Shown: in pieces, positions 9,709-21,200 of the stretch | Position numbering within the stretch: the first letter of the stretch is position 1 | Layout of the letters: the number at the start of each line of letters is the position of its first letter | Assembly (NCBI GenBank): GCA_949840905.1 | Contig: CATKXW010000009.1 | Span: 1 to 64,000, forward strand | Length of the DNA stretch: 64,000 nucleotides | Origin: an uncultured Eggerthellaceae bacterium | Lineage (GTDB): Bacteria; Actinomycetota; Coriobacteriia; Coriobacteriales; Eggerthellaceae | Reading direction: 5' to 3' | Notes under the pieces: generated by a model | What the model was told of the DNA's origin: nothing | Seen by the model: only the letters and a program-made list of their open reading frames with translations | The model's database searches: none | Program-made: the position numbers and the translations under genes

Positions 9709-10884
9709 GTGTCGTCCTCGATGACCATGATCACGATCGCAGACATCGTGCTGCTCGTTCTGCTGATCGTCGTGCTCGTGGTGGCCCTGATACGCATCCG
9801 ATCGTTGAGCCGACGGATGGAAGGCCTTGAGGAGGATCTCAACAAGGAGCGTAAGCGCATCGCTGAGGTGCAGGCGTTCATCGAGCGGCGCAGCGGTGCG
9901 AACACCCGCCCGGTGCGTGAGCTGCAGCAGCCGATGCCCCAGCGCCCGCGCGAAGAGGATATGGCTCCCCGTGACTTAGGCCAGGCCTACTATCTTGACA
10001 ATGCTCATCGTCCTGACATGGGGCAAGGGGGCGAGCAGGCTCAGCAGATGCAGCGCATGAGGGAGGCTCAGGCACGGCAGCGAGCTTATGCGCAGCAGGC
10101 CGAGCAGCGGGCCGCCCAGGCTCGGGCGGAGCAGGCAGCTCACGAGTACACCCAGCGGCAAGCGCGCATGCAGGCGCAGGCCGAGTTCATCCAGAAGCAG
10201 GCATATATGCAGGCTCAGCAGCAAGCCCAGGCCGATGCCCAAGCGGTCGCTCAGCGTCAGGCGCGGGAGCGCGCCCGGGCGCAGCAGCAGGCGGAGGCTC
10301 AGCGGCGTGCCCAGATGGAGGCCGAGCGCCAGGCTCAGGCCCAGGCACGCGAGCAGCAGCGCATCATCGGTGAGGCTCAAGCTGAGGCGAAGCGACGGGC
10401 CCAAGCGGAAGCTCAGGCGCGGGCCGAGGCGGAGGTGCGTGCGCAGGCAGAGGCGCAGCAGCGTGCTCAAGCCCAGGTGAACGCTCAGGTGCTGGCTCAG
10501 CAGCGGGCGCGCCAGGCCCAGGTGGCACAGCAACCTCAGCAGATGCAGCCCCAACAGACCCAGCACGCCCAGCAAGTCCAGCCCATGCAGCAAGCGCAGC
10601 AGGTCCAGCAGGCTCAACAGGCTCAGCAGGCTCGGCCCATGCAGCCGGTCCCGCAGGCTCAACCTATGCAACAGGCTCAGCAGGCCCAGCCCATGCAGCA
10701 AGCGCGGCAGGTCCAGCCCGTGCAACAGGCTCAGCAGGCCCAAGCGGCCCAGCAGCGCATGGCCCAGCAGCAGGCCCCTATGGCCCAGCAGCAGGCCCCT
10801 ATGGCCCAGCGTGCCGTGCGCCCGACCCAACCGACCATGAGCCCGGCGGGCACCCAGTCCCCGCAACAGGGTTGGGGCAGATAG
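9709..10884 (+). CDS. membrane-anchored Gln/Ala-rich coiled-coil protein of unknown function
   Basis: I do not recognise a family. The GTG start has AATAGGAGC 5-8 nt upstream. Residues about 8-27 (TIADIVLLVLLIVVLVVALI) are a single transmembrane helix, followed by a short charged coil (RRMEGLEEDLNKERKRIAEVQ) and then about 270 residues that are almost entirely Q, A, R, E and M. The first half (to about residue 260) is EAQ/RAQ-rich and should form a long helix. The second half is PMQQAQQ/QAQQ repeats with proline. At the DNA level, CAGCAGGCCCCTATGGCC is tandemly repeated near 10768-10803. It could be a spacer or scaffold like the TolA central domain. Confidence 0.7.
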   Translation: MSSSMTMITIADIVLLVLLIVVLVVALIRIRSLSRRMEGLEEDLNKERKRIAEVQAFIERRSGANTRPVRELQQPMPQRPREEDMAPRDLGQAYYLDNAHRPDMGQGGEQAQQMQRMREAQARQRAYAQQAEQRAAQARAEQAAHEYTQRQARMQAQAEFIQKQAYMQAQQQAQADAQAVAQRQARERARAQQQAEAQRRAQMEAERQAQAQAREQQRIIGEAQAEAKRRAQAEAQARAEAEVRAQAEAQQRAQAQVNAQVLAQQRARQAQVAQQPQQMQPQQTQHAQQVQPMQQAQQVQQAQQAQQARPMQPVPQAQPMQQAQQAQPMQQARQVQPVQQAQQAQAAQQRMAQQQAPMAQQQAPMAQRAVRPTQPTMSPAGTQSPQQGWGR

Positions 10885-15704: not shown

Positions 15705-17087
15705 TTAGGGAAGGTGATAGCGCCGCTGTCTTCCTTTGCCGCGGGCTACCAAGAGCCCCTTTTCTACTAGATCGTGTATGATGCGCTGCGCGGTTCGGGA
15801 GGATCGTCCGTTTGTTACGAGCTCTGCCGTGCGAAGCCCCTCGGGACGTTCGGCGAGCTTCAGGATGTTCGCGATCGTGTCGTCTGGATCAGCTGTTGTC
15901 CCCGGGGGTTCTTCCGTTGCTGGTTGGGTGGGAACGAAAGCCTTGAACACGATCCCTTCCTCTAGCTCGGGCTCGCGGCCAGTGTAAAGATGAGAACATC
16001 TGAATATCTCGCGCGTTCCGCTTCCGAGTTCTTCTGCGAGGCCTATATGGCAGAAGAACGAAGAAAGAGTAGGGTTCTTCGGCAGTGGGGCGAAGGCATC
16101 GGGCTCTAAGGGGCCCTCGAAGGAGGCGCGGCTCGCATTCTCGGTATGGATGCCCATGGGGTCTATGATCACCTTGGCGGGAGAAGGGCTTGTGAACTCC
16201 CGATGGATCAAGCAATTGATCATCAATTCGCGAATGATGATATCGCGAGGGCTGATCGCCTGATCCCCTTCTAGTAAGAACCGATCGGGAAGATGTTTTC
16301 GGCAAAAGCTAGCGAGCAGCGTATAGGCGTCCATGAGATTCGTCGTGATGGTGAGTCTGTCGTCATATCTGTCCTTGTCTGCGATGCGAGCAATGGCGTC
16401 GGTCTTATAAGTGGGACAGACAGAGCGTATGACCTCGTCTTTTCCGAGAGCGAGAACCGCGGCGAGAGTATAGCCCCTTTTTCCGGTCGTATAGTCCTTT
16501 CCGAAGAGTCCGGCCGACTCGAGAAGTTCTAAGTCGGTCATCTTCTGCCAAGGATGATCCTTGCGTTTGATCCGAGCGAGCTTTCGCGCTTCATCGATGA
16601 GGTCAGCGCGAAGATCTTCAGCAGATACGTGCTCTATAACGCGCCGTTCGGTGAATATGCCTTGCTTTCTTATGTAGAGCTCAGCGAGCGGTATGCTCCC
16701 GCGCATGACCGTGTCGCTATCTGCTTTGCGAATGTAGACCTTTCCTTTAAAGCTATGAACTTGCGGGCTATTCGGTACGGTGATCTTGACCACCTGTCTG
16801 CCCCCGGTGTCGATATGCTCAAAGCCGATCGCTATGGGGATGTCGAAGGTGTTTGGGTTGTTGATCACATTATGGATATTGCGCATGATAGGAAGGACCT
16901 TGGTCGCTTCGATCCCGCGGACGACCCCATCATCCTCGACACCAAGAAAGATAGTGCCGCCGAAGCCATTAGCGAAAGAGCATATCGTTTCGAAGATATC
17001 GCTCCCGGGGTTGTTGCTGCAGCGTTTGAACTCAACGTATTCATTTTCTCCCATGGTGAGCACTTGCTGGAGTTCGTCTATATTCAT
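15705..17087 (-). CDS. ATP-binding Schlafen/AlbA_2-domain protein with C-terminal winged helix
   Basis: A 460-residue protein of the COG2865 type. The N-terminal AlbA_2 (Schlafen-like) domain shows ENEYVEFKRC and ETICSFANGFGGTIFLGVEDDGVVRG. A middle GHKL/HATPase_c_4-like region has DIIIRELMINCLIHREF, IDPMGIHTENASRASFEG and GLAEELGSGTREIFR. The last 60 residues form a predicted winged helix (AELVTNGRSSRTAQRIIHDLVEKGLLVARGKGRQRRYHL). A regulatory or defence-linked role is possible, but none is proven for the family. The ATG at 17087 has AGGTGGGGG upstream. GC content is lower than in neighbouring genes, suggesting acquisition. An iterated repeat lies directly in its promoter region. Confidence 0.85.
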   Translation of the reverse strand: MNIDELQQVLTMGENEYVEFKRCSNNPGSDIFETICSFANGFGGTIFLGVEDDGVVRGIEATKVLPIMRNIHNVINNPNTFDIPIAIGFEHIDTGGRQVVKITVPNSPQVHSFKGKVYIRKADSDTVMRGSIPLAELYIRKQGIFTERRVIEHVSAEDLRADLIDEARKLARIKRKDHPWQKMTDLELLESAGLFGKDYTTGKRGYTLAAVLALGKDEVIRSVCPTYKTDAIARIADKDRYDDRLTITTNLMDAYTLLASFCRKHLPDRFLLEGDQAISPRDIIIRELMINCLIHREFTSPSPAKVIIDPMGIHTENASRASFEGPLEPDAFAPLPKNPTLSSFFCHIGLAEELGSGTREIFRCSHLYTGREPELEEGIVFKAFVPTQPATEEPPGTTADPDDTIANILKLAERPEGLRTAELVTNGRSSRTAQRIIHDLVEKGLLVARGKGRQRRYHLP

Positions 17088-17110: not shown

Positions 17111-17192
17111 ATGGCGCGATTATGGCGCGATTATGGCGCGATCGGCGCGATTATGGCGCGATTGGCGCGATTATGGCGCGATTGGCGCGATA
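17111..17192. repeat. eight-copy GGCGCGAT tandem array before the AlbA_2 gene
   Basis: Units are 11, 11, 11, 9, 11, 9, 11 and 9 bp: ATGGCGCGATT three times (the third ends in C), then GGCGCGATT alternating with ATGGCGCGATT. Read on the gene's strand this is (AT)AATCGCGCC repeated, ending 24 bp before the ATG. The junctions create CATAAT, which is -10-like, so the array may overlap the promoter. It looks like a multi-site operator, plausibly for the wHTH protein it precedes. Confidence 0.85.
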
Positions 17193-18011: not shown

Positions 18012-18181
18012 GCCAAACATCACCTCCTGGTAACAGGAACGTGACTAATCGAATAAGGGAGCCTTTCGCTAGCCTCCGGTTTGCTGACCTTTCGCTAGAA
18101 ACAGTTGACGAGGGTATCCACCCACCGTGCTGTTTCTAGTCTTTTGGGAATCCTGAGATTAGCCACATGGTGATGTTTGGC
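18012..18181. repeat. 170-bp element with nested inverted repeats
   Basis: Three colinear nested arm pairs are seen. GCCAAACATCACC (18012-18024) pairs perfectly with GGTGATGTTTGGC (18169-18181). GTGACTAATC (18041-18050) pairs with GATTAGCCAC (18157-18166) with one G-T-type mismatch. CTAGAAACAG (18095-18104) pairs perfectly with CTGTTTCTAG (18130-18139). A small CCTG-GTAA-CAGG hairpin and two copies of CTTTCGCTAG lie inside. It could be a MITE-like element with 13-bp terminal inverted repeats or a structured RNA in the leader of the next gene. Confidence 0.75.
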
Positions 18182-18298: not shown

Positions 18299-21200
18299 AT
18301 GCGGTCATCTGTCGCTGTGCGCTTGCGCACGCTGTTCGCGCCCTTGTTGGTCATGCTGCTCGCATGCGCCATGGCGCCCACCATCGCTCTCGCCGATGAG
18401 GCGGAAGAGGGCGCTGGCTCTAAGGTCGGCATCTCTGTCGACGGGCCCGAAGAGGGGTCGACCGAGGACGCCTCTCCTCTCGTCGGCGCTCTGACCAAGA
18501 GCCGCACCTACGTCATGGTCGCCGATACCCTCTCCGACTTCTCGGTGGTCACCATCGCATCGGGCACCGTCGAGCTCGCTTCTGATGCGGGCGAAGAGAT
18601 GAACGTTCCGACCATATCCTCGACCTATATCGCGCAAGGGTGCGTCTATTCGTTCGACGAGGAGGAGAAGACCTTCTCCCTTGTGAACGCCGCTAATGCC
18701 GAGGTCTCAGAAGAAGGCCTCTTCATCGTCCCGAGCGCCCTTGAGCTCGAAGGTGCCGCATATCCTGTGACGGGGGTGTCGGCCGGGGCCTTCTCGGGCT
18801 CGGATGCTCTTCTCGTGGCGCTCTCGCGCAACGTGGTCTTCGTGGACGATGACGCTTTCACAGGAGCGGGGACGCTCCGGGGCGTCTACGTCTCCTCCGC
18901 TAACGATTCCTACTCATCTTACGACGGCTGTCTCTATGATCGGCCGCAAAAGAGCCTCTTGCTCGTTCCCGAGGGCAAGCTGGGCGCTGTCCGCATCCCT
19001 TCCGGTGCGGAGAACATCGGATCGGAGGCGTTCTCGCATTGCGCCTCTGTGGATTCGATCTCCGTCGATGCGGGCAGCGCAGCCATCTCATCCCTCGAGG
19101 ACGTTGAGATCCATAACGCGAACGGCGACCCGATAGAGGTCGTCGTCATGGAAGGAAGCTCCCTCAACGATGGCGTTCCTTCCGATCGGAACGCTTCCGA
19201 TGAAGCGCCTCTTCTTTCCGAGGACGATGGATTTGGTGGCGAGGTTTCTGACGATATGGTCGAAAGCAATAACTTGACGGAATCGATCGATCTCGAGCTT
19301 GATTCCGGTATGGTGGATAACTGCGTTGTCATCCTTCAGGTGGCAACAAATGGCGAACCTTCCGACACTGCGCTCGTCGATAGAGGGTCGCAGGGTGCCC
19401 CGATCCTGACCGAAACAGTTCCTCTTTCTGATGAAAGGCTTTCCGCGCGATCTGATAGCTCCATATTTCACATGGAGCTGCTGGGCGACGGCAGTGGCTT
19501 CAGGCTTGCCTATATCGAAGCTAGCGCTTCCGGTGCCGTTGCGATTCCGGCACTTTGGACCCAGGATGGTAGGACCTTGCCAGTAGTTTCTATTGGCAGC
19601 TGGGCTTTGTGCGGTGGGTTTCGAGAGGGAGATCATGCGAACAATGTGACCTCCATACATATACCTGCGACGATCACATCTATCGGTGGGGAATATCCGT
19701 TTGGCTGGGGCAGCCAGCGGCAACTTGCTTCGATCACGGTAGATCCAGGAAACAGCGTGTACGCTTCGCTCGAGGGCGTCCTGTTCACAAAAGACATGGA
19801 AGCGCTCATCTTCTATCCGGTGAAAAAGACCGACGAGCATTATCGTATTCCCGCCAGTGTTCAGTCTGTCTATGGGGCCGCATTCACTCGTTGCTATGAT
19901 TTGCGCGCGGTCACGATCCCGGCAGCGCTTTCTCAGAGACTAGGAGATCGGGTTCTTCTGGACGCATGCTCGAATGTGCGCGACCTATATGTTGCAGATA
20001 GCACGAATCCGTCCATGACCAATAGGGTCTGCATCATGATGGATAATTCCTTGATCACGGTGCACCTTGCGGTGTTTACTGCGGACCAAGTGAGTATCTG
20101 GAGCAATGCGGGATTTCCCGTGGAGAATATCGTGCAAGGCGAGCCGCGGTTCACGTTCGTGCGAAACGATGGAGGTACGGGTTTTATTCTGACTGCCGTC
20201 AGTAGTCTAGTGGTCGGTGACGTGGATGTTCCTGCTACTTGGACCCAGGATGGGGTGACTTTGCCTGTGGTCGGTATCGGGTCGTATGCTTTTGCTAGTG
20301 GACACGAAGCGGGCGCTCAAGCTGTGGGCGTGACGTCCGTTCATATTCCAGCATCCGTTGTATGGATATCCCCAGCTCATCCTTTTGGTTGGTGTGACGC
20401 CATGAGCATGGCGTCGGTGACGGTCGATCCTGAAAACCCGAGCTTCACGGCCCTTGATGGCATTCTTTACGACAAGAGCGTTACGGAGCTCGTTTTCTAT
20501 CCATTTGCGAAGCGTGATAAGAGCTATGCGATGCCTTCGACGCTCACGAATTACCGCTACAGCTCAATGACTCGCTGTAGGTATCTCGAATCGGTGACGT
20601 TCAGCGCATCGTTCATGGGTTCTCTCGGTCATGATGCCCTGATGGATGCATGCTCTACGGTGCGCGATGTATACATTGATGGTGTGACCCCTTCAGGCAT
20701 GCAAGGACATTGGTTTCTTTTCGCAAACAAGGCCGAGGTGACCATTCATCTCCTTAATTATGTGGACGCTGAGATCCAGACATGGGTGAATGCAGGGTTT
20801 TCGCTGAGCAAGATCGTTCCAATGGGCTCTGCTCTATCCTTTGCGGAGAGCGCTGATGGCGGCGGCTACGTTCTTGTTGGCATCGATTCTTCCGTCAGCG
20901 GCGTCGTTGTTGTTCCTTCGCAGTGGTCGCAGAACGGGAGAACGCTGCCCGTTGTGGGCATCGGCGGAGACACGCTTGGTTGTGGATGGACCTCGAGCCC
21001 TGCCGCCAATGTGACATCGATCCAGATTCCTGCCAGTTTGACCTACATATCTTCCGACTATCCATTCGGCTGGACGCCGGGCCGAAAGCTTTTTGAGATC
21101 AAGGTAGATAGGGAGAATCCAGCTTTTTGTTCAGTAGATGGGGTGCTGTTCAGTAAGGACAAGAGCCAGCTTATCTTCTATCCGCCGGGCAGAACGAACC

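Follow-up and report, generated by a model that had tools for sequence, protein, structure and literature searches.

A direct-repeat array beside a Schlafen-like gene as the probable binding site of the encoded winged helix

Plasmid iterons are direct repeats spaced about one or two helical turns apart that lie by the gene of the winged-helix Rep initiator that binds them, and MraZ boxes are direct repeats in tandem, with a spacing of about 10 bp, in front of the gene of their own repressor, although MraZ is not a winged-helix protein. The locus described here resembles the iterons in having repeats beside the gene of a predicted binder. It differs from the iterons in that no replication gene context was found, and from the MraZ boxes in that no cell-division gene context was found around it; both are taken as leads only. 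The BldC protein of Streptomyces is a winged-helix protein that binds direct repeats head-to-tail, with about one turn of DNA between molecules at an extended site (PMC5859096, PMC11963761). RptR, a repressor of E. coli defence islands, represses its own promoter via three 9-bp direct repeats, and both protein and site are conserved across genomes (PMC12255303). RdfS, the excision factor of an ICE, is a winged-helix protein that oligomerises along DNA at sites without a clear consensus (PMC11963761). Winged-helix-bound arrays are already known. The titles and abstracts on AlbA_2, COG2865 and bacterial Schlafen proteins contained no array of the kind described below, and no report of a DNA target of any prokaryotic AlbA_2 (COG2865-type) protein, a widespread group, was found in the literature searched. 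Arrays by AlbA_2 and Fic genes, repeat units that track the recognition helix, and arrays located 3′ of the gene were likewise not found in that literature.

The window, the whole 64,000-nucleotide stretch of DNA analysed here, contains eight exact copies of GGCGCGAT on the forward strand at 17113..17191 (starts 17113, 17124, 17135, 17144, 17155, 17164, 17175 and 17184), which read as ATCGCGCC on the minus strand, that of the Schlafen-like gene at 15705..17087. A sequence-only reading had described an array of eight repeats before a Schlafen/AlbA_2 gene, and this description was confirmed; the array lies upstream of the gene, at 25 bp from its ATG and not the 24 bp counted earlier. The steps from unit to unit are 11, 11, 9, 11, 9, 11 and 9 bp, and the alternation of 11 and 9 bp claimed in that reading holds for most steps but is broken once, by the pair of 11-bp steps at the gene-proximal end. 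The linkers are TAT (four), C (one) and T (two), and Tandem Repeats Finder scored the array at 137 with a period of 20. The bare 8-mer GGCGCGAT is not rare in the window, the sequence of which is GC-rich (11 copies compared with 10.4 expected). The pattern of two neighbouring copies, on the other hand, matched seven times in the 1.98-Mb genome, always within the array of the window, while the reversed control pattern matched zero times; no second target with adjacent units was found in the whole 1.98-Mb genome. Apparent unit copies 3′ of the gene are located in a GC-rich hairpin and were rejected as an array.

The gene encodes a protein of 460 amino acids. Its SLFN_AlbA_2 domain (residues 14-128, 16704..17048, minus strand) matched PF04326 with an E value of 2.4e-18 and 67.2 bits, above the curated cut-off of 25.3, and a HATPase_c_4 match of 23.6 bits, below the cut-off of 26 bits, covered residues 336-377 only. 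An AlphaFold2 model built from 22 sequences (mean pLDDT 87) places a winged helix at the C-terminus (residues 401-460, 15708..15887, minus strand), with helices at 401-412, 420-425 and 430-442 followed by strands at 447-449 and 456-458. Pfam returned no HTH match in this protein; the model, in which a helix-turn-helix is followed by a beta wing, supports the earlier suggestion that the protein ends in a winged helix. The predicted recognition helix consists of residues 430-442 (15762..15800, minus strand), with SRTAQR in its first turns, as judged from the model and from the alignment to RRTAQR homologues. The best PDB match was DIP2311 (3lmm), which aligned with the AlbA_2/ATPase body including the HATPase_c_4 region at 16-17% identity. 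The likeness to DIP2311 is one of body fold, and the C-terminal domain of DIP2311 is named a 'transcriptional regulator' in Pfam (PF22168, DIP2311-like_C); the literature searched yielded no reported DNA target of DIP2311. The protein of the window had no match to PADLOC families at an E value of 0.01, and so no assignment to a known anti-phage system, and no match in NCBIfam.

The search for arrays upstream of homologous genes in other genomes, which the sequence-only reading had proposed, was positive: 5-9 exact ATCGCGCC units stand before the genes of Eggerthellaceae homologues, two of which are 66% and 63% identical to the protein of the window. The cores are exact, as the search itself required, while copy number and linkers (A, ATA, AAA, ACA, AA, G) differ. 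A global scan with the triple ATCGCGCC pattern returned mostly coding repeats of GC-rich genomes, and only loci with A-rich linkers are informative. Such arrays were found by more remote AlbA_2 genes, in Olsenella (L134), Polyangiaceae (L122) and Pirellulales (L165). They were also found in Patescibacteria (L080), Alphaproteobacteria (L118) and Saccharibacteria (L173), where the adjacent genes encode Fic proteins without AlbA_2 and with the helix motif [RK]RT[AL]QR. The proteins encoded beside these arrays, AlbA_2 and Fic alike, share a winged helix that bears a [RK]R[TS]xQR-type motif. Because the array is shared by AlbA_2 and Fic genes, and because the winged helix of the L118 protein is N-terminal, the array is tied to the winged helix rather than to the enzyme body. 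Motif and array also co-occurred among AlbA_2 loci that were not fetched through the ATCGCGCC pattern (p=3e-5, a count in which three loci come from array-selected genomes and L322 is miscounted as array-less). In a sample of Coriobacteriia Fic genes, 0 of 30 had an upstream array and one had a downstream array, and arrays are therefore not general to Fic genes. No AlbA_2 match was found in the viral contigs searched. Two further loci carry the unit in other settings: in Thiothrix (L136, 2792-2916), 14 ATCGCGCC units in strict 9-bp steps lie within an ORF and are probably an unrelated coding repeat, and in Herpetosiphonaceae (L152, 6295-6475) there are two ATCGCGCC arrays with A-rich linkers, of 5 and 6 units, with no AlbA_2 or [RK]RTxQR gene found within the 6.8-kb locus.

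Arrays of other units were sought beside more than 300 AlbA_2 genes sampled across several classes and phyla, using a detector for at least three near-identical 8-mers at a step of 8-13 bp. In the first set, arrays were present upstream of 36/233 genes and downstream of 29/217, compared with 2/452 random windows and 0/450 shuffles; in loci fetched later, the counts were 6/84 upstream and 13/84 downstream, with 1/254 in the controls. Among AlbA_2 genes obtained otherwise than through the ATCGCGCC pattern, 67/308, or about one in five, had an adjacent array by this detector and 241/308 had none, with controls at about 0.4%. The enrichment is more than 30-fold over controls. Replication slippage may produce tandem arrays and change their copy number, and the array of the window could be a neutral repeat of this origin. 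This explanation is nevertheless the least probable of those considered and is largely refuted by the comparative data, since homologues at 63-66% protein identity keep exact cores between differing linkers, genes in other phyla are accompanied by the same unit, and arrays are enriched as stated above.

The unit differs from gene to gene. GAATCGGTTA occurs with the helix SQSAAIRLL, TTTTCACTTGCT with SNASQISRLI, CTTCCTGAAT with SKRSASTHL and TAATTGCA with SRNTAxN, while TTCGGAGTAG is located 3′ of its gene and is paired with a WHG-type winged helix, and the L013 array consists of TTTCCTAAA units. In the genome of the window itself, three AlbA_2 genes were found with three units, namely ATCGCGCC, GATTAGAAT (L212) and TCAATTATCAT (L455). 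At L126 (the same region as L227) and L394, both with the helix SERQV, a single AlbA_2 gene is flanked by two unlike arrays, AGCTGTGACA upstream and a GGGGCG-type array downstream.

The relation between helix and unit was measured over 65 array-gene pairs that were left after winged helices more than 60% identical had been dropped, using gene pairs with a body identity below 30% and helix identity over 12 columns. Unit similarity was correlated with helix identity (r=0.208, p=0.002), a value reached by 0/500 permutations, whereas no correlation was seen for the remainder of the winged helix (r=-0.01, p=0.56) or for the body (r=-0.05, p=0.90). The pattern had been seen qualitatively before the formal test was written, and the later loci alone agree with it (r=0.266, p=0.014). 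The ATCGCGCC arrays of L118, L122, L165 and L173 were entered by hand; in L173 the detector had chosen a different repeat, TACCGATA. An array of a neighbouring gene was probably sometimes credited to the wrong gene, as in L495. It is predicted that each protein would bind the array adjacent to its own gene. The array could instead be the operator of some other regulator, with the winged helix of the neighbouring protein serving a different purpose. We consider this quite improbable, because the unit tracks the neighbour's own recognition helix across unrelated bodies, and because, in several phyla, Fic and AlbA_2 genes that share the helix motif also share the unit.

In terms of spacing, two successive steps mostly add up to 20-22 bp. 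Where an array mixes short and long steps, the two kinds alternate more often than in within-array shuffles (p=0.0004, with homologues that are not independent), which lends support to the earlier view that the units pair with a period of about 20 bp (11+9). A -10-like hexamer was found 3-10 bp beyond the 3′ end of 7/42 upstream arrays compared with 1.9 expected, and the same test gave no -10 signal for downstream arrays. In the homologues L061 and L322, which have 10-bp steps, TATAAT or TATACT lies 6-7 bp past the array, and the array would therefore cover the -35 region there; L080 has a -10-like box at the same distance. In other classes, CATAAT or TAGAAT lies inside the unit itself. In the window, CATAAT boxes, noted earlier at unit junctions, occur on the minus strand at all four 11-bp junctions (17119-17124, 17130-17135, 17150-17155 and 17170-17175) and may serve as -10 elements; a promoter scan detected no -10/-35 pair on the gene's strand inside the array. 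With repeats close to the helical turn that end 25 bp before the ATG, and a promoter that is presumably located there, this array has the form of a direct-repeat operator. The geometry of the upstream arrays suits an operator role.

Arrays at both ends of the coding region could also be transcribed, and eukaryotic Schlafens act on RNA. An array working as RNA, in the leader or at the 3′ end of the transcript, where the AlbA_2 domain or the winged helix would bind it, is nonetheless very unlikely, and somewhat more so than another regulator. The -10-like boxes past the arrays of L061, L322 and L080 would mean that transcription begins downstream of the array, a spacing by helical turns fits DNA, and the array family at L118, L122, L126 and L165 can face either way with respect to the gene.

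These comparisons point to the array as the cognate site of the winged helix of the neighbouring Schlafen-like protein, through which the protein would control its own transcription, most simply by repression; we give this reading a probability of roughly 65%. Most likely, the protein binds the array that adjoins its gene, and for upstream arrays autoregulation is the role with the best support. One winged helix would occupy each unit, with units repeating about once per helical turn or in 9+11 or 8+12 pairs, and because of this recurrence the protomers are proposed to be aligned on one face of the DNA, where they may oligomerise and bind cooperatively. The winged helix would sit on the array in the manner of BldC (PMC5859096), and an array upstream of a gene would govern that gene's promoter in the manner of RptR (PMC12255303). 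Since the array of the window lies over the likely promoter, binding would control transcription of the gene itself. Repression might be relieved when the AlbA_2/ATPase-like body senses a ligand or nucleic acid. The likeness to the described systems has its limits. BldC is a 68-residue MerR-like protein that acts at many promoters, whereas here a 460-residue AlbA_2 protein carries the winged helix as its tail, and its own gene adjoins the genome's sole site with adjacent units. The small dimer RptR reads a 6-bp palindrome and has one conserved site sequence, while the units described here are non-palindromic, more numerous and gene-specific. The sites of RdfS differ from the exact cores found here, and the resemblance consists of the winged helix and the predicted oligomerisation, without implying excision.

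The view that the array serves promoter control, as first proposed, holds up for the promoter-like geometry upstream and is too narrow otherwise, in that a similar number of arrays is located 3′ of the stop codon and some AlbA_2 genes are bracketed by units on both sides. No consistent partner was found when the next downstream gene was considered as the target of 3′ arrays. Copies of the 3′-array unit are weakly enriched in the gene's own promoter region (p=0.03), and looping is therefore not established. For 3′ arrays, mobility, titration and tethering are the main alternatives.

Direct repeats flanked 37/306 AlbA_2 genes (12%) and 6/30 Fic genes, compared with 3/201 ordinary genes and 0/297 swapped flanks, and this flanking is solid for the genes sampled. 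The repeats are 28-312 bp long with 81-100% identity (among others at L016, L013, L450, L321, L440, L362 and L226), and look as if single AlbA_2 genes had been inserted as cassettes. L450 has the order repeat-gene-repeat-gene-repeat; by eye, the L016 repeat seems to be a copy of the 3′ end of the neighbouring gene, and the L013 repeat a copy of a tRNA-like stretch. Arrays were more common in AlbA_2 genes flanked by direct repeats (20/35, 57%) than in unflanked ones (46/262, 18%; p=1.5e-6), and 22/24 arrays of the flanked genes lie within the repeat-flanked unit or overlap the direct repeat.

These data allow for a main task other than promoter control, in which the bound array would act in cis for a mobile cassette of one gene (in its excision, its copying or an iteron-like maintenance) or would serve to titrate or tether the protein. 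Arrays on the 5′ side, the 3′ side or both would all be acceptable for such a task. We regard it as unlikely, though well ahead of the other alternatives. No direct repeat flanks the gene of the window within about 1.2 kb, and the gene does not classify as a direct-repeat-flanked cassette; the promoter-like geometry of the upstream arrays fits transcription control, and no recombinase or replication function is known or predicted for the domains of these proteins. The link between arrays and cassettes may also merely reflect recent insertions in which the arrays are still intact. In a bolder form, which we hold to be equally tentative, AlbA_2 and Fic winged-helix genes would be portable single-gene units with private, helix-matched arrays; the array would act in cis, whether in movement, in self-recognition or in maintenance of the unit, and helix and array would co-diversify so that paralogues could share a cell without cross-reaction.

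If control by the protein's own winged helix is correct, every array-bearing gene displays its own site, which would provide targets for dozens of uncharacterised proteins, and the natural pairs of helix and array could yield a helix-to-DNA recognition code for the winged helix. The association of arrays with direct-repeat cassettes may explain the single-gene spread of Fic and Schlafen-like genes.

Two other repeats were observed in the window. A 13-bp perfect inverted repeat (GCCAAACATCACC / GGTGATGTTTGGC, 18012-18181) with arms 144 nt apart is located in a 1.1-kb stretch ahead of the gene at 18299, where no Rfam match was found. Tandem repeats of 9-54 bp at 10417-10810 lie inside a 391-aa ORF (9709-10884) and encode a long Gln/Ala-rich stretch.
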